Positions 9,795-60,288 of a DNA stretch of 64,000 nucleotides are shown one piece after another. The stretch is taken from the IMG/VR virus record IMGVR_UViG_3300013094_000017, positions 186,001 through 250,000 of that record; one strand, 5' to 3'. A program made the translations under genes and the position numbers. The notes beneath the pieces were generated by a model. It was not told the origin of the DNA and ran no database searches. It saw only the letters and a program-made list of their open reading frames with translations. Source of the DNA: a virus. Numbering within the stretch: the stretch's first letter is position 1; each line of letters starts with the position of its first letter.

Positions 9795-10178
9795 ATGGCT
9801 GTAACATATAACAACGTACCTAAAGCACCTGCATCGTCGGCATCTAGTTCAGACCAAACCGTACAGGCATTTGATCAATATTATCAAACTCCTATCGCAT
9901 TAAACAATAATGACCTAGTAGCAATGACTGGATTCTTTGAGAAGCGAGGATTTGGAGTAGATTCAGCAGAGTCAACTGCATTGGTAATCCTACAACAGGC
10001 CAAGAAAGATGGGTTTAGTGCCATGCAGGTGATGGATACGTTATCTGGGTTGAACCCTGTAGAAATTAGTGCCCTAGTTGCTGAGATCTTAAATTACAAT
10101 AGATTTAAAACCAGCAGTCTTGGTACATCGCAGAATTATGCACCGTCATCGGAAGTTACAAGAAATATTATAGCATGA
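9795..10178 (+). CDS. Conserved virion protein of T4-like phages
   Basis: 127 aa: a Ser/Ala-rich N-terminus, then a compact helical domain (LVAMTGFFEKRGFG; AESTALVILQQAKKDG; MQVMDTLSG; EISALVAEILNYNR) of a kind I recall next to tail and head-completion genes in T4-like marine phages, where it is annotated as structural. The start overlaps nothing; the end overlaps the gp4 ATG by 4 bp, suggesting translational coupling. Function unknown. Confidence 0.7.
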   Translation: MAVTYNNVPKAPASSASSSDQTVQAFDQYYQTPIALNNNDLVAMTGFFEKRGFGVDSAESTALVILQQAKKDGFSAMQVMDTLSGLNPVEISALVAEILNYNRFKTSSLGTSQNYAPSSEVTRNIIA

Positions 10179-13374: not shown

Positions 13375-14964
13375 ATGGCAAGTAAATCATTAGACGGTAA
13401 CCTAGTAAAGAAAGCACACTCTACTCAGAAGTATACCAATCAACAAATTGAAGACCTTCTAAAGTGTAGCGATCCTAGTACGGGTCCGGCATATTTTCTA
13501 GCAAACTTTTTCTTTATACAGCATCCTACTAAAGGTAAGATCTCGTATAAAGCATTCCAATATCAGGAAGAATTATTAGAAAGCTATCACTCACATAGAT
13601 TCAGTGTAAACATGCTAGGTCGTCAGATGGGTAAAACGACCACTGCCGTGGGATATCTCTTATGGTATGCTATGTTTGTTGACAACAGCACTATCTTAAT
13701 TGCCGCACACAAATACACAGGTGCTAAAGAAATTATGCAACGCTTACGCTACGCATATGAAACTTGCCCAGATCATATTCGATGCGGTGTTACAAGTTAC
13801 AATAAAGAATCAATTGAATTTGACAACGGTAGCCGCATAGTAGCACAGACAACAACAGAAACAACAGGTCGTGGTATGTCACTATCACTACTATACTGTG
13901 ATGAGTTTGCGTTCGTTCCACCTAACGTAGCTTCTGAGTTTTGGACTTCAATATCTCCTACACTAGCCACAGGTGGTAAGGCTATTATTACAAGTACTCC
14001 AAACAGTGATGAAGATCAATTTGCACAGATTTGGAATGAAGCTAATAAGCGATTTGACGAATACGGTAACGAAACTGAAGTAGGACGTAACGGCTTTGCT
14101 CCTTACATGGCTATTTGGAATCAGCATCCAGATCGCGATGAAAAATGGAAAGCAGAAGAAATGTCGCGTGTGGGCGAAGAACGTTTCCGCCGTGAACATA
14201 ATTGCGAATTCTTAATCTTCGACGAAACCTTGGTTAACGCTATTAGCCTTTCTGATATGGAAGGCAGAGAACCTATTATGAAAATGGGGCAAGCACGTTG
14301 GTACAAGAAAATCAATCCTGCTAGCACATACATTGTATCATTAGATCCTAGCCTGGGCACAGGTGGAGATTATGCTGCTATTGAGATCTTAGAAGTACCT
14401 AGTATGGAACAAGTAGGTGAGTGGCATCATAATATGACACCCGTACAAGCACAAGCCCGTATACTACGAGACCTATTAAAGTATATCGAAGATCAATGTT
14501 CCTTACAGGGTGTTACCCCGAGCATTTATTATTCTATCGAAAACAATACAGTAGGCGAAGCTGCCTTGGTTGCTATTAATGAATTAGGTGAAGAATCATA
14601 CCCCGGCATGTTCTTAAGCGAGCCGATTAAGAAAGGACACGTTCGTCGTTTTCGTAAAGGATTTAACACAACACATTCGGCTAAAATCAATGCCTGTGCC
14701 AAACTAAAACAACTAATCGAATCACGCCAGCTTAAGGTGTACAGTAAGACCTTAATTAGCGAACTCAAAACATTTGTGGCTGCAGGTATTACCTACAAAG
14801 CCAAAACAGGACAGCACGACGACTTAGTTTCAAGCCTGTTGCTGGCCATGCGTATGATATTAATACTGCAAGATTGGGATCCAAGCATCTATGAAAAGAT
14901 GCGAGATCATACAGGGTTAGAGGAACACGATCTTCCTATGCCTATCTATATCAGCTCTTACTAA
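13375..14964 (+). CDS. 17: Terminase large subunit gp17
   Basis: A 529-aa packaging motor. N-terminal ATPase: Walker A LGRQMGKTTT at residues 81-90, Walker B LLYCDEFAF near 170. C-terminal RNase H-like nuclease: YIVSLDPSLGTGGDYAA near 318 (first Asp), SIENNT, and GQHDDLVSSLL near 482 (last Asp pair). These are the standard TerL motifs. T4 gp17 is 610 aa, so this is a compact version. Leaderless late promoter upstream; its own small subunit gp16 lies 2.3 kb earlier. Confidence 0.97.
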   Translation: MASKSLDGNLVKKAHSTQKYTNQQIEDLLKCSDPSTGPAYFLANFFFIQHPTKGKISYKAFQYQEELLESYHSHRFSVNMLGRQMGKTTTAVGYLLWYAMFVDNSTILIAAHKYTGAKEIMQRLRYAYETCPDHIRCGVTSYNKESIEFDNGSRIVAQTTTETTGRGMSLSLLYCDEFAFVPPNVASEFWTSISPTLATGGKAIITSTPNSDEDQFAQIWNEANKRFDEYGNETEVGRNGFAPYMAIWNQHPDRDEKWKAEEMSRVGEERFRREHNCEFLIFDETLVNAISLSDMEGREPIMKMGQARWYKKINPASTYIVSLDPSLGTGGDYAAIEILEVPSMEQVGEWHHNMTPVQAQARILRDLLKYIEDQCSLQGVTPSIYYSIENNTVGEAALVAINELGEESYPGMFLSEPIKKGHVRRFRKGFNTTHSAKINACAKLKQLIESRQLKVYSKTLISELKTFVAAGITYKAKTGQHDDLVSSLLLAMRMILILQDWDPSIYEKMRDHTGLEEHDLPMPIYISSY

Positions 14965-48125: not shown

Positions 48126-48186
48126 ATCATTTCCTTAAGGTTATGCAGCGGGGTCACTACATATATAGTGTTATACTATAAGATAC

Positions 48187-48215
48187 ATTATACACTATAT
48201 ACACTAGTAAGTCAA
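48187..48215 (-). promoter_or_regulatory. Promoter of omega-like gene
   Basis: TTGACT, 17 bp, TATAAT, 62 bp before the ATG. The leader contains one GTAGTGACCCCGCTGC box. Confidence 0.78.
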
Positions 48216-48574
48216 TGTATACTGTATATAGTATAGAATATAAGCTATTAAGATATAGTGAGTATAGTATATAGTATAAGAGATCTATATATACTATACA
48301 GCGGGGTCACTACATATACAGTAATATAGTATACAGTAATACAGTATACTGTATATACGGTGGGACCTATCGATATATAAGAGGGTATTAGGCAAGGTCA
48401 GAACCGCTAGGCCAAGGTCTAAATATGGTCAAGAATGGTGGCCAAATGGTGGATTCATGGGAGGTTTTTCTGTGAGATTATGGTAAAATCACTATAGAAA
48501 CTGTGGGAAAATTGCTGCAAAATTTTTTGAAGGTGGGTGGGGAGAGAGGCTATGCTAGAATACTTCCCCAATGG

Positions 48575-48643
48575 TTCACCTATTTTCTCATACCTTGTTC
48601 ACCTATTTTCTCATACCTTGTTCACCTATTTTCTCATACCCTG
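48575..48643 (+). repeat. Three tandem 23-bp iterons
   Basis: Unit TTCACCTATTTTCTCATACC followed by TTG, at 48575, 48598 and 48621; the third differs by one base (CCCTG). Perfect phasing of two helical turns. Confidence 0.92.
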
Positions 48644-48853
48644 TTCTTACTATTCTCACAGTTCTCATGCAGCGGGGTCATACTGTATATAGTATATATA
48701 GTAATAAGTTCCCACTATAGCAAAAGCTCTTTAACTAGGTGTATAGTTCTAGCATACTCTCTTATACTGTATATAGTGTGTATACACTGCATGTATTAGA
48801 TATACTGCATATAAGGTTATATGTATTAGATATAGTGTATATAGTGTATAGTA

Positions 48854-48882
48854 TTGACTTCTAGTAGTATATAGTGTATACT
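48854..48882 (+). promoter_or_regulatory. Promoter of 49-kb operon
   Basis: TTGACT, 17 bp, TATACT, reading toward the small membrane-protein genes. Confidence 0.75.
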
Positions 48883-48978
48883 GACTGTATGTATAGATTA
48901 TGAGTAGCAGAGTATATATAGATACCAGCACTTATACATAGTCTATTAATATTGTCCTCACCCACTCAAGGATCTACT

Positions 48979-49644: not shown

Positions 49645-49893
49645 ATGACTTGGCGTAGGGATCTTGATGTACTGCAAAAGAACTTCACCAATTGGATCTT
49701 CACCAATTGGATGCTGATACCTCTTGTTAATAAGGCCAGTGGACTAGCTGATGTTAATCAAAGGATGCAGGCCCTGTACCCTGGTCCCTATAGTGTAATA
49801 GAAAAATTTGATCCCCGTCGAGGGTTGTTTGTTCTAGACCTAGAGTTTGCTAGCCCTCAAGCTCGTACTTTATGGCTACTCAAGTGGAGTTAA
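49645..49893 (+). CDS. LKW-family small protein 1
   Basis: 82 aa ending in FASPQARTLWLLKWS. Helical N-terminus with a repeat FTNWIFTNW, strand GLFVLDLEF, then the C-terminal signature. First of the group; AUG one base after the previous stop. Confidence 0.68.
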   Translation: MTWRRDLDVLQKNFTNWIFTNWMLIPLVNKASGLADVNQRMQALYPGPYSVIEKFDPRRGLFVLDLEFASPQARTLWLLKWS

Positions 49894-49894
49894 T

Positions 49895-50137
49895 ATGAAA
49901 TACTTTTGGCCCGGACCCGGTGCAGATCCTGTACTCACCCACAGATTTAAAGTTAGCCTAGTCACTGATGAAATGTGGCTGTGGTGCGAACAATATGATA
50001 GTGGTCTGAGTGTAGACCGTGACTTTAGACGTTGGAATATTGAGTTTGGCCAGAACCGAGGCCGTGACCATGATGTCATACAGTTTGAATGGGAGCAGGC
50101 GGCAATTATGTTTGCTCTAAAGTTTGAGACCCTATAA
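49895..50137 (+). CDS. LKW-family small protein 2
   Basis: 80 aa from ATG 49895, ending WEQAAIMFALKFETL. Contains EMWLWCEQYDSG and FRRWNIEFG, the helix plus W-x-x strand seen in other members. Confidence 0.68.
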   Translation: MKYFWPGPGADPVLTHRFKVSLVTDEMWLWCEQYDSGLSVDRDFRRWNIEFGQNRGRDHDVIQFEWEQAAIMFALKFETL

Positions 50138-50523
50138 TGTGGGATAAGATTCAGGACTGGTATCTAACCTGGCGCACTGGCCGACCTCGCCAGGTACGTG
50201 AGTTTGAAGCATGGGCAGAAGTTACAATAGTCAAGCGTGCTAACACAGCCGAGGCTATGTTTAGGAACTTCAAGTATGTGTTTACAGTTGACTACAACAA
50301 GTTCTTTTTTGATGCTGGCATGTTTATGGAGTTAGACCCAGGAACTAAACCATATATGTTTCCACAGCGTGAGTTAGGTGATAACTTAGTCTATGCTCAC
50401 CTGCGTGGAGAGGAAATGCCAATTGGCCTGTTTCTTATAACTGACTTAGGTGATGAAGATAGACTTTATGTTGCCACAAACAACGGCAAGGATGCTACTA
50501 TGATAGCACTATTATACGGTTGA
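50137..50523 (+). CDS. LKW-family small protein 3 (divergent)
   Basis: 128 aa ending NGKDATMIALLYG, a weakened form of the signature. N-terminal DWYLTWRTGRPRQVREFEAW. One-base overlap with the previous gene; its TGA is part of the next promoter's -35. Confidence 0.6.
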   Translation: MWDKIQDWYLTWRTGRPRQVREFEAWAEVTIVKRANTAEAMFRNFKYVFTVDYNKFFFDAGMFMELDPGTKPYMFPQRELGDNLVYAHLRGEEMPIGLFLITDLGDEDRLYVATNNGKDATMIALLYG

Positions 50524-51001: not shown

Positions 51002-51149
51002 CACACCAACTGTGTACACTTTACCTTCGGCGGGCGAAGCACATGCTTTCGTTAAAGGAGTTAACGTTGGATCAAAAAGTAAGGATAAAACTATAGTTGT
51101 TTACCCTTGGGGTCGAGAGGAAGTTGAGGTAATAGTATATGCGTCATAG
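50985..51149 (+). CDS. Small protein, 54 aa, GTG start
   Basis: VRHKINTPTVYTLPSAGEAH, AFVKGVNVGSKSKDKTIVVY, then WGREEVEVIVYAS. Overlaps both neighbours (17 and 11 bp). Small beta protein. Confidence 0.45.
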   Translation: MRHKINTPTVYTLPSAGEAHAFVKGVNVGSKSKDKTIVVYPWGREEVEVIVYAS

Positions 51150-51396
51150 AACTAAAACCTTACGCGAAGGCCGTTGGTACAAACTATTCAAAAGTACTAA
51201 TCCTAAAACTGGTCGATCCAGCTATACCATACAGGTTGATGTGTATAATTTACGAGCGTGGGATAATGATGTGATACGCAAGCATTTTGACCCAGCAGGC
51301 AATCGTGGTAGTAAACACGGCACACGTTGGAAGTACGGTAATAAAGAAACGGCAGAAAAAGTATTGCTAATGGCAATGATAAAATTTGGAGAATAA
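51139..51396 (+). CDS. LKW-like small protein, 85 aa
   Basis: Basic; SYTIQVDVYNLRAWDNDVIR, GTRWKYGNKETAEKVLLMAM, ending IKFGE. Helix, W-x-Y strand and C-terminal helix with A-x-x-MA-M-I-K-F resemble the LKW design, so a distant member. Confidence 0.55.
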   Translation: MRHRTKTLREGRWYKLFKSTNPKTGRSSYTIQVDVYNLRAWDNDVIRKHFDPAGNRGSKHGTRWKYGNKETAEKVLLMAMIKFGE

Positions 51397-51661: not shown

Positions 51662-51801
51662 TGGAAATGTTTTTTGGATTTGCCATGGGCCTGGGAACAG
51701 GGGTATGGGCAATGAATTATCTTTGGGAAGAAAAAATCCGAGAGATTATTCGTACAGGCGAGTATACCAGTCTGGTCAACCCTCCAGTTGACAAACCCTA
51801 A
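51661..51801 (+). CDS. Small membrane-associated protein, 46 aa
   Basis: MEMFFGFAMGLGTGVWAMNY, LWEEKIREIIRTGEY, then Pro-rich end. Its 3' end contains the next promoter. Confidence 0.5.
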   Translation: MEMFFGFAMGLGTGVWAMNYLWEEKIREIIRTGEYTSLVNPPVDKP

Positions 51802-53442: not shown

Positions 53443-53664
53443 ATGGCTTATGTTGACGTTGAAGTAGAAGTAGAGTTAGATATGTTCAGTGATAAGGAAC
53501 TTATCGAAGAATGTAAATTACGTGGAATGTCTGTTGATGGGGGTGTAGAACATTACTCTGCTCATGATGTCATCCGTGACATCTATAATGCCAAGGCCCG
53601 TGGACAAGACTACGAGCCTTTGTTACGTGATCTATTCTATCGCACACTTGGACGGGTATGCTAA
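53443..53664 (+). CDS. Acidic hypothetical protein, 73 aa
   Basis: MAYVDVEVEVELDMFSDKEL then helical (VIRDIYNAKARGQDYEPLLR). The opening is that of a family I recall from tailed phages (VEVDLDDFSDEEL). Overlaps fhs by 7 bp. Confidence 0.6.
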   Translation: MAYVDVEVEVELDMFSDKELIEECKLRGMSVDGGVEHYSAHDVIRDIYNAKARGQDYEPLLRDLFYRTLGRVC

Positions 53665-55265
53665 CTGATATAGAAATTAATCAAGGGTACAAGCCCTTAA
53701 AGCTCTCAAAGCTGGCCTCTGGGCTAGGCATTGGGGGTAGCGTACAAGAGTGGGGGCCAAATAAGGCCAAGATAGCATTTGATGAAGTTAAGAGCCTTAC
53801 CCAGGGTAAATTGATCTTAGTCACAGCCATCACCCCCACCCCCGCAGGTGAGGGTAAGACCACAACCACCATAGGCCTAGCTGATGGGCTACGCAAATTA
53901 AACTACTCAAGCATAGTATGCCTACGTGAGCCAGCCCTGGGCCCGGTGTTTGGTATGAAGGGTGGGGCTACCGGGGGTGGTCATGCCCAGGTCTACCCTA
54001 TGGAGGATATCAACTTACACTTTACAGGTGACTTCCACGCAGTTGCCTGCGCACACAACTTACTCAGCAGTATGATTGATAATCACTTACATTGGGGCAA
54101 TGCGCTACGGTTAGACACTAGCAAGATCACATGGCGCAGAGTCAGCGAAATGAATGACCGTAGCTTACGCAGTACAGTAGTAGGGTTAGGAGCTCATAAC
54201 AGCATCACCCGTGAAGAGGGCTTTGATATAGTAGTAGCCTCTGAGGTAATGGCTATATTGTGTCTAGCTGAAGATTTCAAAGACCTAAAGAAACGTCTGG
54301 GTAAGATCACAGTTGGGTATACCTTAGATGGTAAGCCCGTTACAGCTAAACAGTTAAAGGCGCATGGGGCTATGGCAGCCTTACTTAAAGATGCTGTCAA
54401 CCCTAACCTAGTACAGACTTTAGAAGGTACCCCAGCACTAGTTCATGGCGGCCCATTTGCTAACATAGCACACGGATGTAATAGTGTTATTGCTACCAAG
54501 TTAGGTTTGAAACTTGCTGACTATGTGGTAACAGAAGCAGGCTTTGGTGCTGACCTAGGTGCTGAGAAGTTTATTAATATTAAGTGTCGTAAGAGTGGAT
54601 TACGGCCAGATGCAGTAGTCCTTGTGGCCACTGTTAGAGCAATTAAGTACTGGGGTAATTATGATAATTTGGACAAACATATGGCTAACATCAAAGGTTG
54701 GTATAACTTACCTTGTATCGTGGCTATTAATCGTTTTGCAGACGATTCTGATGAAGATATTGCTGAACTAATAGAACATTGTCGAGAAAGAGATGTTGAA
54801 GCAGTAGAGTGTACACATTTTGCAGATGGCGGGGTAGGTGCTCAAGAACTAGCACACGAAGTTGTCTTGGCCATTGACCAATCAAGCAAGCAGATGGAAT
54901 TGACCTATGCTGATGAAGATACATTATGGACTAAGATAAATCATATTGCCAAGAGAATATACGGTGCCGAAGGTGTTCATATGGATGCTAAAGTATCAGC
55001 ACAGTTAGATCTACTACAGAAACATTATGGAAAGTATCCAATCTGTATTGCCAAAACACAGAGCAGTTTCAGTGATGATCCTACAGATAAGAACTCAGCA
55101 ACAGACATACACACACTAACTGTGCGTGAGCTACGCCTGTGTACCGGAGCAGAGTTTATTGTGGCAGTATGCGGTAACATCATGACCATGCCAGGACTAC
55201 CAGAACGGCCAAACGCTGAACGTATTGGTATTGACCGACAAGGGCGTATTGAGGGATTAGACTAA
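53658..55265 (+). CDS. fhs: Formate-tetrahydrofolate ligase
   Basis: 535 aa (bacterial enzymes about 555-560). Makes 10-formyl-THF from formate, THF and ATP. P-loop TPTPAGEGKTTTTIGLADGL near residues 60-79, followed by LREPALGPVFGMKGGATGGG, HFTGDFHAVACAHNLLSSMI and DRSLRSTVVGLG, all family signatures; C-terminal CGNIMTMPGLPERPNAERIG is intact. It looks full length and functional. Product feeds purine and, via other C1 carriers, thymidylate synthesis. It sits in the operon of LKW and membrane genes, overlapping both neighbours. The first 700 bp look more G-rich than the rest. Confidence 0.96.
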   Translation: MLTDIEINQGYKPLKLSKLASGLGIGGSVQEWGPNKAKIAFDEVKSLTQGKLILVTAITPTPAGEGKTTTTIGLADGLRKLNYSSIVCLREPALGPVFGMKGGATGGGHAQVYPMEDINLHFTGDFHAVACAHNLLSSMIDNHLHWGNALRLDTSKITWRRVSEMNDRSLRSTVVGLGAHNSITREEGFDIVVASEVMAILCLAEDFKDLKKRLGKITVGYTLDGKPVTAKQLKAHGAMAALLKDAVNPNLVQTLEGTPALVHGGPFANIAHGCNSVIATKLGLKLADYVVTEAGFGADLGAEKFINIKCRKSGLRPDAVVLVATVRAIKYWGNYDNLDKHMANIKGWYNLPCIVAINRFADDSDEDIAELIEHCRERDVEAVECTHFADGGVGAQELAHEVVLAIDQSSKQMELTYADEDTLWTKINHIAKRIYGAEGVHMDAKVSAQLDLLQKHYGKYPICIAKTQSSFSDDPTDKNSATDIHTLTVRELRLCTGAEFIVAVCGNIMTMPGLPERPNAERIGIDRQGRIEGLD

Positions 55266-55507
55266 TGGCAGTTGTTTGGGAAAATAGAGAAAAGAGTAGA
55301 TTCTTAGTATCAGGACCTTTCGATGAAAGTATGCCTAATCTATATGTTATTATTGCTGATTTTGGTTGGTATATCGAGCATACTGACGAAATAGAATATT
55401 GGATGGATCAGCATTTGCCTCAAGGAAGACATCATCGAGAGGGGATGGTTATATCGTTTGATAATCCCAAAGACTGTTCGCATTTCTTATTAAGGTGGAT
55501 GGTTTGA
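55265..55507 (+). CDS. LKW-family small protein 4
   Basis: 80 aa. IADFGWYIEHTDEIEYWMDQ helix, then GMVISFDNPKDCSHFLLRW and MV. One-base overlap with fhs. Confidence 0.68.
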   Translation: MAVVWENREKSRFLVSGPFDESMPNLYVIIADFGWYIEHTDEIEYWMDQHLPQGRHHREGMVISFDNPKDCSHFLLRWMV

Positions 55508-55812
55508 GTCATTCTGCCTATAGAGAAATTACAAAACCTTATTGGGATCATCATGACGATGTATATGCCGATGAAGTAGAAAATGGTTGGGAGCCAAAGT
55601 TTACATCTTGGTATCAACACACTATTGTAAACGACATTGCCCGTGGTGGATTTGATTGGCATTTTGATACCTACGAACAGATTGCCAAATGGATTCCTGA
55701 GAACGTGGAAGATTGGGCTAACAATGCACAATGGCTCAAGGTCAGTGATTGCATCTATGTTAGATTTAAGCGTGAAAAAGATTATGTTTGGTTTATGTTG
55801 AAGTGGGGCTAA
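55504..55812 (+). CDS. LKW-family small protein 5
   Basis: 102 aa from TTG 55504 (ATG 55495 is an alternative). Ends VRFKREKDYVWFMLKWG; internal FDWHFDTYEQIAKWIPENVE. Confidence 0.65.
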   Translation: MSHSAYREITKPYWDHHDDVYADEVENGWEPKFTSWYQHTIVNDIARGGFDWHFDTYEQIAKWIPENVEDWANNAQWLKVSDCIYVRFKREKDYVWFMLKWG

Positions 55813-55813
55813 T

Positions 55814-56029
55814 ATGCCAAGAAACGGCGAATACGAATTGTTTACCTATAAAGGTACAATTGTCTGCATGGATGACCCGGATATCCCGAGAATAGAATTC
55901 TCTGAAGAAATTGCCGAGTGGATACGTGAGCAAGACCATTTAATGTGGCGTTCATTATCACCGCCCAATCAAGATATATTCTACCTAAAACCTAAACTAT
56001 ATATGATGTGGAAGTTAAAGTGGGTATGA
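55814..56029 (+). CDS. LKW-family small protein 6
   Basis: 71 aa, ending YLKPKLYMMWKLKWV, preceded by EEIAEWIREQDHLMWRSL. ATGA overlap with the next gene. Confidence 0.66.
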   Translation: MPRNGEYELFTYKGTIVCMDDPDIPRIEFSEEIAEWIREQDHLMWRSLSPPNQDIFYLKPKLYMMWKLKWV

Positions 56030-56229
56030 ATGGTTTCCAACAATCAGTACAATCAATAAAGGAAAATTTTGCTTGGTCTACAATCTGTAGCAGCCGAGAC
56101 TTTAGACATCAAGCTCAATGGGTTATTGATAATCTAGGCCCGCAAGGTATTAGATGGGAATATTCTCAAACAAAATACTACTTAAAAACAGAACAAGACA
56201 AATTATTATTTCTATTGAGGTGGAGTTAA
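56026..56229 (+). CDS. LKW-family small protein 7
   Basis: 67 aa from ATG 56026. HQAQWVIDNLGPQGIRWEYS then YLKTEQDKLLFLLRWS: a clear member with helix, G-x-x-W strand and signature. Confidence 0.68.
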   Translation: MNGFQQSVQSIKENFAWSTICSSRDFRHQAQWVIDNLGPQGIRWEYSQTKYYLKTEQDKLLFLLRWS

Positions 56230-56414
56230 TGCTAATACCTGTTGAAACTGTACATAAGGCTGTTAGGGATCTCGAATCTCACGGGGATATAACCCAAACT
56301 ATGTTTGAAGATCGTTATCGCTGTAGTCTTTGTCCCAGCGATAGTCTAGAGCATTATGATGTTATTTTTGATACACCTCAAGCTGCTATTATGTTTATAA
56401 TGAAATGGTCATGA
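56229..56414 (+). CDS. LKW-family small protein 8
   Basis: 61 aa from ATG 56229 (TAATG overlap). Ends VIFDTPQAAIMFIMKWS. CSLC pair in the middle. Confidence 0.68.
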   Translation: MLIPVETVHKAVRDLESHGDITQTMFEDRYRCSLCPSDSLEHYDVIFDTPQAAIMFIMKWS

Positions 56415-56415
56415 G

Positions 56416-56739
56416 ATGAAAACAATTTGGTTAAAGAGTCCTATTGCAGAACTATGGTGGAAGTTCTGGCCTGGGAAGATCATTGACCTACCGATGCCAG
56501 ATGGCTTTATGTCTGAAATTGTATGGGGTGTTGTAACAGTAGGAACAAATATGTCTGAGCAGTATTACAATATGCTGGTCTGGATGGAAGAACATGTAGG
56601 AGTAAAAGGACGTGATTGGAATTGGCAAATTCATACAACTACTGAATTATTACACTATAAATCTGAAACTAGATTAGCTATTAAACTTCGACGTGGTAAA
56701 GAAAAACAAGCAAGTATAATAGCATTAAAATTCTCATGA
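56416..56739 (+). CDS. LKW-family small protein 9
   Basis: 107 aa. YNMLVWMEEHVGVKGRDWNW is the clearest form of the helix-G-W-x-W element; ends KEKQASIIALKFS. ATGA overlap with the next gene. Confidence 0.68.
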   Translation: MKTIWLKSPIAELWWKFWPGKIIDLPMPDGFMSEIVWGVVTVGTNMSEQYYNMLVWMEEHVGVKGRDWNWQIHTTTELLHYKSETRLAIKLRRGKEKQASIIALKFS

Positions 56740-57038
56740 TATTAAATCGTACACAATTTGCCATACACTTTAACAATCTGCAACCTGGACTAGGTAATCG
56801 CAGTAGTGCCTTATGGAGTCCCGAAGAATATCTTAGAGTAAACAAATCTGTGGCATTTGTTTGTGTTAAACCTATTAACGTATCGGCGATAGGAAAAATA
56901 GTATATTGGAACTGGTGCAAGAAACACTTACAAGGAAAAGTAGCCTGCTACAGCAGCGATGATATTAACGAAGAAGAATGGTGGGGATTTACTAATCCCG
57001 ATGATATTGTATTTTGGATGCTAAGATGGGCGAACTAA
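56736..57038 (+). CDS. LKW-family small protein 10
   Basis: 100 aa ending GFTNPDDIVFWMLRWAN; VYWNWCKKHLQGKVACYSSD in the middle. Confidence 0.66.
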   Translation: MILNRTQFAIHFNNLQPGLGNRSSALWSPEEYLRVNKSVAFVCVKPINVSAIGKIVYWNWCKKHLQGKVACYSSDDINEEEWWGFTNPDDIVFWMLRWAN

Positions 57039-57316
57039 TAAACTCAAATACATTCGCTGATAATACAGAGAACTCTAAAGACAGAGAAGATTGGTTACTT
57101 AGACGTAACAGATACTGGATGAGATTGCGTGCAGTCCATCGTGAGTTTAATGCTCTTAAAGGTGGGAATTACTCAGCAGGTGACGAACTTTTTGTCAAAT
57201 ACCTGCAAGATACCTACGGAGTTCAAATGCATGTTGAAAACACCCATATTACTGCCCTCTACAATGTAGTAGACAAATCAAAATATCTGTTATTCTTAAT
57301 GAAATTTGATGTATGA
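57026..57316 (+). CDS. LKW-family small protein 11
   Basis: 96 aa from ATG 57026. ELFVKYLQDTYGVQMHVENT then VVDKSKYLLFLMKFDV. Overlaps its neighbours by 13 and 4 bp. Confidence 0.64.
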   Translation: MGELINSNTFADNTENSKDREDWLLRRNRYWMRLRAVHREFNALKGGNYSAGDELFVKYLQDTYGVQMHVENTHITALYNVVDKSKYLLFLMKFDV

Positions 57317-57705
57317 GTTTTGGCGGCTTTTCGTTACCGTTTATAGGCACTAAAGAGGAATATCAAGAGCTAATGGCCAAACAAGAAATAGCAAAACGTA
57401 CACTCAATCTGTATAAGAATCTATTATGGCGGTATCGTCTTAGGACTGAGATCTCTATCAAGTGGCCCATTGGGTGGACACCACAGGATCATTTGGGCAA
57501 TAGTGCTGAAAGCTCAGACCCTAATGTTTGGTACCGTGATTGGTTTGAACAGCATGCTGGTCGTCAAGGATGGGCATGGGATTGGCGTATTGGTCAAACG
57601 CATACTTACGAACTTGATCCATTAGTTGAGGTGCATGATACATTACGCATTAAGTTTCGTGACCCAAAAATAGCAACCTTGTTTATATTAACTTGGGTAA
57701 GATAA
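57313..57705 (+). CDS. LKW-family small protein 12
   Basis: 130 aa. YRDWFEQHAGRQGWAWDWRI then LRIKFRDPKIATLFILTWVR. N-terminal extra helix with EEYQELMAKQEIAKRTLNLY. Confidence 0.67.
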   Translation: MSFGGFSLPFIGTKEEYQELMAKQEIAKRTLNLYKNLLWRYRLRTEISIKWPIGWTPQDHLGNSAESSDPNVWYRDWFEQHAGRQGWAWDWRIGQTHTYELDPLVEVHDTLRIKFRDPKIATLFILTWVR

Positions 57706-58017
57706 ATGGCAAAAAGTAGTTTTGAAGAGAGTCTTGAGGATATGATAATTCAGGAATGGTCTGAAAGTTGGGATCATGCCGTCTTAGATGAGCTATGGGG
57801 AAATACACCTAAGACCTACAGCATAAAAAAATCTTGGCGTGATCGCAGAGGCAGACAGATGCATCGCATTTCGGTCAGCGGTCGTGTGCTGGAATGGTTA
57901 GAAACTACACAGTCACAATACGGTAAATCAAATCCAGAATGGTGGAAGTTCCAAAATGAGATCAACATCACAGATAAGATGTTAAGTATGTTGATACTAA
58001 GATGGGGTAAGGAATGA
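57706..58017 (+). CDS. LKW-family small protein 13
   Basis: 103 aa. VLEWLETTQSQYGKSNPEWW then INITDKMLSMLILRWGKE. ATGA overlap with the next gene. Confidence 0.67.
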   Translation: MAKSSFEESLEDMIIQEWSESWDHAVLDELWGNTPKTYSIKKSWRDRRGRQMHRISVSGRVLEWLETTQSQYGKSNPEWWKFQNEINITDKMLSMLILRWGKE

Positions 58018-58283
58018 TGTATAAAGTAACAAAATTAGATGGTAGATTTGCTGGATCAGATCGATACAAGTATTACATCAGCCCTAAGGGAAGAACTCCG
58101 TTTAATATAGTTAAACCTTTGTTCAACGATTGGCGCACATGGTGTTGGGCCACATGGGGACCAGCTAGCGAACGTGATTGGTATGCAAATGTTGACTGGG
58201 CATGGGATACTGAACACAATCATCTACGCATCTATCTGCGCAGTGATAAACAATTATCTATGTTCCACCTCAAGTGGGGTTAA
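58014..58283 (+). CDS. LKW-family small protein 14
   Basis: 89 aa. FNDWRTWCWATWGPASERDW, NVDWAWDTEHNHLRIYL, RSDKQLSMFHLKWG. Last of the array; two ATG in tandem (58014, 58017). Confidence 0.67.
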   Translation: MMYKVTKLDGRFAGSDRYKYYISPKGRTPFNIVKPLFNDWRTWCWATWGPASERDWYANVDWAWDTEHNHLRIYLRSDKQLSMFHLKWG

Positions 58284-58291: not shown

Positions 58292-58480
58292 ATGAGCAAC
58301 TACAACAAAGTACAGAATCAGATCAAACTGTTAGAAATCAAATTGAATAAATTTAGATTATACGAGCAAGAGATAAGATCAACAGATCAATGGAATACGA
58401 GACGTATTGATGATTGTGTTAAATCTCAGGAGAAATTAGTTGAGATGATCAAGTACTGGCGTGGTAAATTGCCTAGCTAG
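58292..58480 (+). CDS. Small coiled-coil protein, 62 aa
   Basis: Almost all helix (NQIKLLEIKLNKFRLYEQEI; DCVKSQEKLVEMIKYWRG), basic. Leaderless late promoter suggests a virion or assembly role. Not an LKW member. Tail to tail with the next gene, 8-bp overlap. Confidence 0.6.
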   Translation: MSNYNKVQNQIKLLEIKLNKFRLYEQEIRSTDQWNTRRIDDCVKSQEKLVEMIKYWRGKLPS

Positions 58481-59234
58481 CAGCAAATATTACCTGTGCC
58501 GCGCCACTACCTGCTGGCGCATCTAAGATAGTCCAATCCATGCCCAAGACTGGTGTTTGGTGTATATGGCTACGTGGTATCCAATACTTATCTACATCAA
58601 TCTTAAGTTGATCAACGATATTGCTAAACACACTGTCCAAACAGATAACTGCCTGAGCGCCTTCGATTACCTTAAGCCAATCAAACACACAATCAGTAAT
58701 ACCTTCTGTGATATTAATCACTTGCCAGTCAGCGGGAACATTACTTAGATCTGGTTCACATTTAAACGAACTACCTTCTGTATGAGTTACAATGTAGTTT
58801 TTGTTCTTAACTACTCGATCATATAGAGCTGTTTCACGTGCAGGATTGCGGGTAATACATTCATCTAATTTCCATTTGTTTAGGAATGGAACACCTGCTT
58901 TGGTATATTTGAATTCATCAAAGTGTTGTATTTGAAAATAAGGAACTTGAGCAAGTTCCGGAACTGCATTAAGACTTTGGTACAAGCAAATAGTTTCTGT
59001 TACGCCCAATGCTTTGAGTCGTTTCATTGGTTCAGAATAAAAGAAATCACCTCGACTATCGACTGGGATTGGAATCCAGTTGACCCAGGGCGCCACATCG
59101 CGCACACTGGACCAAAAGGGTTCACAAATTGGCCAATAAATTTCATTTCCTTGATCTGCATAGTATTTGGCAATAGGAAGACCTATAACTAAATCCCCCA
59201 GCCCTCTCGATTGTAGTATTCCTAATTTACTCAT
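58473..59234 (-). CDS. GT-B glycosyltransferase-like protein B
   Basis: 253 aa from ATG 59234. MSKLGILQSRGLGDLVIGLP is the Gly-rich N-terminal motif of GT9/heptosyltransferases; VIEGAQAVICLDSVFSNIVD is the C-terminal acceptor/ADP-sugar region. TAATG overlap with the gene upstream. Confidence 0.68.
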   Translation of the reverse strand: MSKLGILQSRGLGDLVIGLPIAKYYADQGNEIYWPICEPFWSSVRDVAPWVNWIPIPVDSRGDFFYSEPMKRLKALGVTETICLYQSLNAVPELAQVPYFQIQHFDEFKYTKAGVPFLNKWKLDECITRNPARETALYDRVVKNKNYIVTHTEGSSFKCEPDLSNVPADWQVINITEGITDCVFDWLKVIEGAQAVICLDSVFSNIVDQLKIDVDKYWIPRSHIHQTPVLGMDWTILDAPAGSGAAQVIFAAS

Positions 59235-59383
59235 TAATAATTGTCCATCCATACTGATAAAACATTAGCCTGTCCGTATATAGCATAGGCTTGTTGTGTT
59301 GCTTCGTAATTGTTACGGGCTGAAACTACAGTCTCACCCCAACCACCATTTGGAAAACGATAACGTACCTTAAAGCTAAACAT
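59234..59383 (-). CDS. Small protein, 49 aa
   Basis: MFSFKVRYRFPNGGWGETVV, SARNNYEATQQAYAIYGQA, then VLSVWMDNY: beta-beta-alpha-beta. AAAGGGC upstream and an early promoter. Coupled to the transferase gene. Confidence 0.62.
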   Translation of the reverse strand: MFSFKVRYRFPNGGWGETVVSARNNYEATQQAYAIYGQANVLSVWMDNY

Positions 59384-59416
59384 AATATGCCCTTTCTAAG
59401 TTAACAGCATAAACAT

Positions 59417-59445
59417 ATTATAGTATCTATTACCGGTTTTGTCAA
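59417..59445 (-). promoter_or_regulatory. Early promoter P59.4
   Basis: TTGACA, 17-bp spacer containing CCGGTAATA, TATAAT. Serves the 49-aa gene and transferase B. Confidence 0.84.
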
Positions 59446-59447
59446 CC

Positions 59448-60233
59448 TTAAAAGTAGTGTAATCCCGGGTGTTCTTTGAAGTAACATTCATTTCTAGTTA
59501 TCTCTAAATCTCTACGTGCTTCACACCAAATTTCCTGATGTCCTAGTCCAATTGCCACGCTGAGCGCCACGCTTTGATTGCCTATAAATGCATCAGCACC
59601 TGCGATGTATTCAGCTACTTCAAGTAGAGAGCCTGTAGGTTGATAAGGAATTTCCCAACCTGTTGCAGATTTAAATGCTTCGTACTCTTCTGGCAAGCCC
59701 AAAAAGAATGCTCGATCTTCAAAACCCTGTAAGGCCCAATCATTCCAAATAGGACTTAACTGAGGTGGTAACCATCGTGCAGTACGATTGATAGCAATGT
59801 TACGTCCTTCAACAGTCTTAATATCTGGTACTGTGAGCCAAGCATTATTTCGTAGTTCTGTTAACACTTCCGGATCTACAATACCAAACGCAGCCCCATA
59901 TACATCTACATAATTGCCCGGATGACGAATAAACAGTGGACGAAACTTATCTAGGTTATGTGTGATTTCGTCTACTGAAGGATTTAATTTAGCAAACTTT
60001 GTGATATAAGGTTGTGCTTCTAACAGACCTTTGATGAATTCGTAGTCCGTGTCGTTCATACGCCCTGCATGGAATGAGGGACTTTCTACACCATAATAAT
60101 GTCGACTAAGAAAGTCAATTTGGTCCATGTGTAGATAAAACGCACCACCACCAAAATGTTGTACTATGGGCAAACTGTAGATTAAGTCACCTGTTGTACC
60201 GCTATGGACGAAAGAGTTTGAAGTAATAATCAT
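59448..60233 (-). CDS. GT-B glycosyltransferase-like protein C
   Basis: 261 aa from ATG 60233 (AAGGAATATT upstream). SNSFVHSGTTGDLIYSLPIV and FHAGRMNDTDYEFIKGLLEA align with protein A at 31907; C-terminal GADAFIGNQSVALSVAIGLG is the GT9-like acceptor motif. Paralogue of A; sugar unknown. Confidence 0.65.
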   Translation of the reverse strand: MIITSNSFVHSGTTGDLIYSLPIVQHFGGGAFYLHMDQIDFLSRHYYGVESPSFHAGRMNDTDYEFIKGLLEAQPYITKFAKLNPSVDEITHNLDKFRPLFIRHPGNYVDVYGAAFGIVDPEVLTELRNNAWLTVPDIKTVEGRNIAINRTARWLPPQLSPIWNDWALQGFEDRAFFLGLPEEYEAFKSATGWEIPYQPTGSLLEVAEYIAGADAFIGNQSVALSVAIGLGHQEIWCEARRDLEITRNECYFKEHPGLHYF

Positions 60234-60247
60234 AATATTCCTTAATA

Positions 60248-60255
60248 TATAAATA
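60248..60255 (+). promoter_or_regulatory. Late promoter of GIY-YIG gene 2
   Basis: TATAAATA, exact T4 late consensus, 3 nt before the hairpin at 60259. Confidence 0.65.
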
Positions 60256-60258
60256 TGT

Positions 60259-60288
60259 GTAGTTCGCGGGATTGGCGTCCCCAACTAC
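60259..60288 (+). ncRNA. 5'-terminal hairpin of GIY-YIG mRNA, copy 2
   Basis: GTAGTTCGCGGG, loop ATTGGCGT, CCCCAACTAC: same 30-nt length, same stems and internal loop as copy 1 at 27310, different 8-nt loop. Confidence 0.65.

Follow-up and report, generated by a model that had tools for sequence, protein, structure and literature searches.

The majority of giant-phage genes are of unknown function. T4-type phages carry runs of small, tightly packed early genes that take over the host and lie outside the structural clusters. Bacillus phage G contains an expansion of zinc ribbons, with about 35 copies (PMC7824862). Here we have analysed 64,000 nucleotides (nt) of a virus genome (positions 186001-250000 of the 259,419-bp IMG/VR record IMGVR_UViG_3300013094_000017; this whole stretch is termed the window) in which eleven consecutive genes, a1 to a11, end in variants of one short motif. 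By sequence comparison and structure prediction the eleven are shown to be paralogues of a single small domain, which we call the FKLxW domain. The source phage is large and T4-like, and its terminase shares 55% identity with those of the Pseudomonas phages PA5oct/MIJ3 and 49% with that of the Sinorhizobium phage Phosso.

The array genes and their common domain

The genes lie in series on the plus strand (55265-58283) and encode 61-130 amino acids (aa) each, as the first-pass annotation had described, with junctions that span about -24 to +2 nt (ATGA, TAATG, TAAATG). The C-terminal signature it had noticed was scored as [FLIMVYW]x[LMFI][KRTH][WF]x(0-4)-stop. All eleven genes match this pattern, against 4 of the 1,061 open reading frames (ORFs) across 190 kb of this record and a background rate of 50/3,391 ORFs in related phage DNA, so the run of eleven motif endings is not due to chance. 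The domain is at the extreme C-terminus in 11/11 array genes, the motif being followed by 0-10 residues and the stop codon. Inspection of the sequence indicates likely start corrections for a2 (TTG 55504), a4 (ATG 56026), a5 (ATG 56229) and a8 (ATG 57026). In the list that follows, E-values refer to the independent profile described below, trained without the source phage, and L-numbers are labels of matching loci in viral contigs, phages or bacterial genomes.

a1, 55265..55507, plus strand: 80 aa, ends HFLLRWMV; profile E=1.9e-7
a2, 55504..55812, plus strand: about 102 aa if started at TTG 55504, 105 aa if at GTG 55495; ends WFMLKWG; profile E=2.2e-4; relatives in L178/L161
a3, 55814..56029, plus strand: 71 aa, ends MWKLKWV; profile E=1.2e-4; relative in the 28-gene array L142 (41%, 6e-16)
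a4, 56026..56229, plus strand: 67 aa from ATG 56026, ends LFLLRWS; profile E=6.3e-6
a5, 56229..56414, plus strand: 61 aa, ends MFIMKWS; profile E=0.0018, by the motif part only; BLAST finds no relative
a6, 56416..56739, plus strand: 107 aa, ends IIALKFS; profile E=0.0015, helix part only; closest paralogue a9; relatives 36% in L185
a7, 56736..57038, plus strand: 100 aa, ends FWMLRWAN; profile E=3.8e-5; relative in L112 (37%, 2.7e-14)
a8, 57026..57316, plus strand: about 96 aa from ATG 57026, ends FLMKFDV; missed by the profile; relative is an ORF within another phage's family array (L178; 32%, 7e-6)
a9, 57313..57705, plus strand: 130 aa, the family domain being preceded by an N-terminal helix, ends FILTWVR; profile E=3.6e-8; relatives 46%; AlphaFold model made
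a10, 57706..58017, plus strand: 103 aa, ends LILRWGKE; C-terminal motif, with neither profile match nor BLAST relative
a11, 58014..58283, plus strand: 89 aa, ends FHLKWG; profile E=2.5e-4; relative in L176

Within the array pairwise similarity is at noise level; the best pair, a6 and a9, reaches 1.2e-5 with phmmer and most pairs lie above 0.01. Internal comparison is thus weak, and the case for kinship is carried by sequences from outside. Searches with a9 by BLAST and tblastn gave no match in 50,697 phages, and among viral contigs they matched the same phage only, so that a back-translated motif pattern and iterated profiles were needed. The pattern A-M-L-F-K-L-x-W located at least 120 stretches of viral contigs; among the 80 loci listed, 86 of the 103 matches stop within six codons. 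Iterated profiles gather about 600-650 ORFs; at E<=1e-3 there are 651, whereas shuffled decoys give 0, and in 625 of the 651 the match sits at the C-terminus. An independent profile (634 members, 69 positions, source phage left out) placed a9, a1, b2, a4, a7, a3, a2, a11, a6 and a5 above every other ORF of the genome, i.e. nine of the eleven array genes together with an outlying gene, b2, while missing a8 and a10. Recovery by such a profile hidden Markov model was the check that the first-pass annotation had proposed. A profile made from the window only matches the family profile by hhalign with E=4e-8, and all array genes but a5 and a10 have direct BLAST relatives.

The motif is the hallmark of a domain some 70 residues long, with the consensus W-x(16-20)-[ED][VIL]xx-W-[LC]xxx-G-x(5)-[WY]-x(14)-[FIV]xF-[KR]Dxx-D-A-M-L-F-K-L-[TR]-W(-GG). 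AlphaFold modelled a representative with 110 relatives at a predicted local distance difference test (pLDDT) of 90.8 and a predicted template-modelling score (pTM) of 0.78. The predicted order is beta-alpha-beta-beta-alpha (i.e. a strand, a helix, two to three strands and a helix), with FKLxW inside the final helix. In the model of a9 the last 85 residues have the same order of elements (strand 45-50, helix 72-81, strands 89-96 and 108-115, helix 118-128), preceded by an extra N-terminal helix; the pLDDT is 78 overall and higher within the domain. A shared fold, suggested before from the motif, is thus predicted for the family representative and for a9, and the differing N-termini remarked upon at that time would correspond to an extension plus the first strand. 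The possibility that the motif forms the last strand of a ferredoxin-like beta-alpha-beta-beta-alpha-beta fold is ruled out, as AlphaFold makes it a helix.

The predicted order recalls RRM-type domains, resembling a ferredoxin-like fold minus its last strand. The paralogues might then be regulators that bind nucleic acid, each at its own RNA or DNA site, in the manner of the phage G zinc ribbons; exposed aromatic side chains could stack on bases, and the weak list of PDB matches includes an RRM (4erd, the best, with TM 0.41 and prob 0.28). We regard this as unlikely. The likeness is one of resemblance only, the family chain ending in a helix with the fourth strand absent, and no significant Foldseek or profile match was obtained; in the PDB there were 0 fold matches at E<=1e-3 and no sequence match either. 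No conserved basic patch is present, and the tryptophans occur in all members and look structural. The isoelectric points (pI) range from 4.4 to 10 with no single charge class (median 6.1, many below 5), which favours diverse partners over one nucleic-acid role. In the 69-position profile there are no conserved Cys/His pairs of the kind that form Zn-binding knuckles (a single Cys reaches 22%), and no conserved polar cluster hints at a common enzyme.

No fusion partner informative on function was found, the long members having transmembrane helices or unique extensions. N-terminal hydrophobic segments that resemble membrane anchors lie ahead of the domain at L165:2480-3082 and L058:17043-17537 (Phosso). 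In L127, near 10080-10103 on the minus strand, the family motif ends a 156-aa ORF of DGPAxxxxDGxxxW repeats (MORN-like).

Extent and conservation of the family

The first-pass annotation had described the family as expanded; the expansion is far larger than is visible in the window alone, with up to 107-143 copies per large phage contig. The phages with a massively amplified domain are large ones, both T4-like and of other types. Counted at E<=0.01, contigs of 417, 462, 465 and 436 kb contain 107, 91, 85 and 82 copies, respectively, and a 561-kb contig for which 150 of 236 candidates were scored has at least 143. A 39-kb fragment holds 33 copies and the source phage 8. From the median member length of 86 aa, 107 copies are estimated to occupy about 28 kb, near 7% of that genome. 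A 154-kb contig (L142) has a run of about 28 family genes within 8 kb, one of them orthologous to a3.

Counts for named phages, made at E<=1e-3, are 50 for Phosso, 5 for Atu_ph07 and 3 for MIJ3, with no member in T4, phiKZ, phage G, PAU, CcrColossus, BcepSauron, XacN1, S-PM2, 121Q, Hallingskeid or Lak-B5. One of the MIJ3 members occurs with 100% conservation in 11 PA5oct-like phages. Since Phosso, Agrobacterium phage Atu_ph07 and the PA5oct-like Pseudomonas phages, all of which can be grown on laboratory strains, carry the family, it is experimentally accessible now. Bacterial genomes were scanned with a 41-bit motif pattern, and gave one real prophage, in Rhizobium (L251), with a pair of family members. 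A match in Novosphingobium (L252) was not at an ORF end and was judged to be chance. Beside the pair in the Rhizobium prophage (L251:644-5658) several small ORFs end in variants of DxxLxAKLS, and may form a further small family of paralogues that share their C-terminus.

With 110 members scanned per library, Pfam, PHROGs, NCBIfam and PADLOC contained no family for the domain and returned isolated single-member matches only; those to TumE, Imm51, LnsA and SspC, one member each, were judged to be chance. For eight window members, neither PHROGs nor Pfam gave a match at E<=1e-3. Matches in BFVD are uncharacterised proteins of 'uncultured Caudovirales phage', e.g. A0A6J5TB89 and A0A6J5L7N8. These two are probable family members (Foldseek probability near 1, E 5e-3 to 6e-4), and being unnamed and unannotated they contribute no function. 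No paper describing the family came up in a literature search that covered few subscription journals or preprints; the word paralog is absent from the publication about AP-J-162, a Sinorhizobium jumbo phage (PMC11242549).

Adjacent genes in the arrays are rarely alike. Only 11 of 487 neighbour pairs are similar at 1e-5, ruling out recent tandem duplication as the origin of the arrays, and similar pairs number 42 within the same locus versus 1,323 between loci. The arrays of L103 and L192 are collinear, with 15 reciprocal best hits in perfect order. For orthologues in other phages the ratio of nonsynonymous to synonymous substitution rates (dN/dS) has a median of 0.136 and never exceeds 1 in the 137 pairs compared, many of which are not independent. 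The only close relative of the window array (L013) is identical at a9. The family had been called rapidly diverging at first; for the wider family the collinear arrays, the lack of recent duplication between neighbours and the median dN/dS contradict this. By these sequence comparisons each paralogue is shown to be separately conserved.

The extreme copy numbers and the variable presence among related phages could reflect self-propagating or neutral gene clutter, in which arrays grow by recombination and no gene has an individual function. The dN/dS of about 0.14 in other phages, the conserved gene order and the near absence of recent duplicates make this extremely improbable.

Coupled, collinear arrays with position-specific orthologues, and a single shared fold with a conserved C-terminal helix, would also suit the subunits of one hetero-oligomeric assembly, each with a fixed place and with the helix as packing interface. 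One multi-subunit assembly had been offered as an alternative at the outset. It now appears rather unlikely, because some phages have 1-5 copies and others more than 100, and because the members are spread along the genome; three are dispersed in MIJ3, and the Rhizobium prophage has only a pair.

Coupling of the array genes

The translational coupling proposed in the first-pass annotation is supported by the overlapping junctions and by putative ribosome-binding sites embedded in the coding sequence. In dense arrays the L-R-W of the motif is often encoded by CTG AGG TGG, in which GAGGTG would be a Shine-Dalgarno (SD) site a few bases before the next start. The motif arginine is AGG in 51 of 101 coupled members, compared with 12.5% elsewhere in the genes (P=1.6e-19, a value made too strong by the shared ancestry of many members, although the effect is still clear). 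Of 505 coupled genes, 52 contain an SD match of >=6 nt, whereas shuffling of synonymous codons leaves 16+-3. In the window, the overlap of a4 and a5 (TTGAGGTGGAGTTAATG) has an SD-like site TTGAGGTGG within a4 ahead of a5, and a1-a2 probably has the same embedded arrangement.

The bias to AGG and the excess of SD matches raise the possibility that the motif is a feature of the DNA, i.e. that unrelated proteins have converged on LRW ends because AGGTGG serves as the ribosome-binding site of the next gene. As the whole explanation this is very improbable and largely excluded. Most members have K, T or A instead of R and no SD site there, and conservation reaches 45 residues upstream (W24, W36, FxF, DAM), so an embedded SD site cannot explain the whole motif. 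Furthermore the profile also recognises MIJ3_00115, which is separated from its neighbour by 15 nt, as well as the 97 uncoupled ORFs, and the fold is predicted with high confidence. The DNA-level feature survives as an added layer. A conserved protein motif doubling as the ribosome-binding site of the next gene would be a checkable point on the packing of phage genes.

Surroundings, possible function and comparison with other phages

Directly before the array (53658-55265, plus strand) is a complete formate-tetrahydrofolate ligase gene (Pfam FTHFS, E=1e-227). It is kept at 76-79% in about 26 other viral contigs, and is a phage-borne gene of one-carbon metabolism. In 27 related contigs with this gene no such array lies behind it, the identical phage excepted; as a block the array is accessory. 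It is surrounded by small accessory genes, far from the head/tail cluster in the window. Downstream (58473-60284, minus strand) are two ORFs of 259 and 278 aa that look glycosyltransferase-like by eye (heptosyltransferase-like).

Genes with the same ending that were not in the first-pass annotation are b1 and b2, 5.5 kb upstream of the array, and c1, which lies 170 kb away at record position 14480-14734, outside the window. The outlying and related ORFs of the window are as follows.

b1, 49645..49893, plus strand: 82 aa, outlying member, ends LWLLKWS; relative in G001 (L075; 36%, 1.7e-6)
b2, 49895..50137, plus strand: 80 aa, outlying member, ends MFALKFETL; profile E=1.1e-6; relatives 39% in L128
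128-aa ORF, 50137-50523, plus strand: directly behind b2, ends GKDATMIALLYG, like a degenerate motif; not recovered by the profile
b4, 51139..51396, plus strand: 85 aa, ends LLMAMIKFGE; conserved at 51% in related phages (L212/L230/L234); may be a relative of the family that has diverged and is present as a single copy

The region 48140-48960 has few genes, with repeated palindromes like TATACTATA and three copies of TTCACCTATTTTCTCATACC, and could be an origin or a regulatory region.

Large phages package many small proteins, and the pair in the Rhizobium prophage lies near a large repetitive gene, possibly for a tail fibre. The paralogues could thus be minor virion proteins, either decorations or internal proteins ejected with the DNA, with the C-terminal domain acting as a packaging tag. 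We consider this decidedly improbable, given the accessory position of the window array away from the head/tail genes, and a domain that is predicted to be a folded core rather than a linear tag.

We infer that the members bind different partners, from the lack of a common charge, the variable surface and N-termini, the absence of a polar cluster and a copy number from 1 to >100. In this reading they would be small, separately conserved binders of different host or phage proteins, probably early, and we judge it about as probable as all else taken together. Each member would be a small protein-binding module in which the fold is maintained by the conserved aromatic and aliphatic core, and each paralogue may owe its own partner to its variable surface and N-terminus. 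Most likely the proteins would be made early and act on host proteins (in defence, transcription, metabolism or proteolysis) and perhaps on phage proteins. The varied targets suggested in the first-pass annotation are likewise a deduction from these features. Sigma70-like matches are present upstream in the same block (TTGACT-17-TATACT at 50520 and TTGACA-17-TATACT at 51788), and the T4-type late promoter TATAAATA is absent between 47.8 and 60.2 kb. Together with the accessory position behind the FTHFS gene, this would make early expression and action on host proteins most likely.

Several points weigh against small early binders of diverse partners. The promoters are weak evidence, as sigma70-like consensus matches are near chance in the region, with 49 found and 41 expected. 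TATAAATA occurs at or below chance across the whole window, and its absence near the array consequently says little about timing. Strong purifying selection is not the usual outcome of an arms race with host defences, and the dN/dS values come from members in other phages rather than from the window array. Some members have transmembrane segments or C-terminal extensions, and so need not all work alike, and a10 is counted as a member by its motif and nothing else.

A broader proposal, that the one fold is a general scaffold for 50-150 different effectors per giant phage (in the case measured best, these take up roughly 7% of the genome), is tentative, and we would put it somewhat short of an even chance. 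Each effector would have its own host or phage target, be held by purifying selection, and carry in its C-terminal codons the ribosome-binding site of the next gene. If one fold covers up to about 100-140 genes per phage, a sizeable part of the dark matter of these genomes would become a single question, that of what an FKLxW domain binds.

The runs of early takeover genes in T4-type phages are similar in arrangement, but few of those genes are related, in contrast to the repeated use of a single fold here. The zinc ribbons of phage G (PMC7824862) are likewise one small domain expanded in a jumbo phage lineage, with function unproven; they differ in fold (a metal-binding ribbon), in being restricted to one lineage and in their far smaller number of copies. 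With that precedent, the expansion of a small domain is a known kind of event, and it is the domain that is new.

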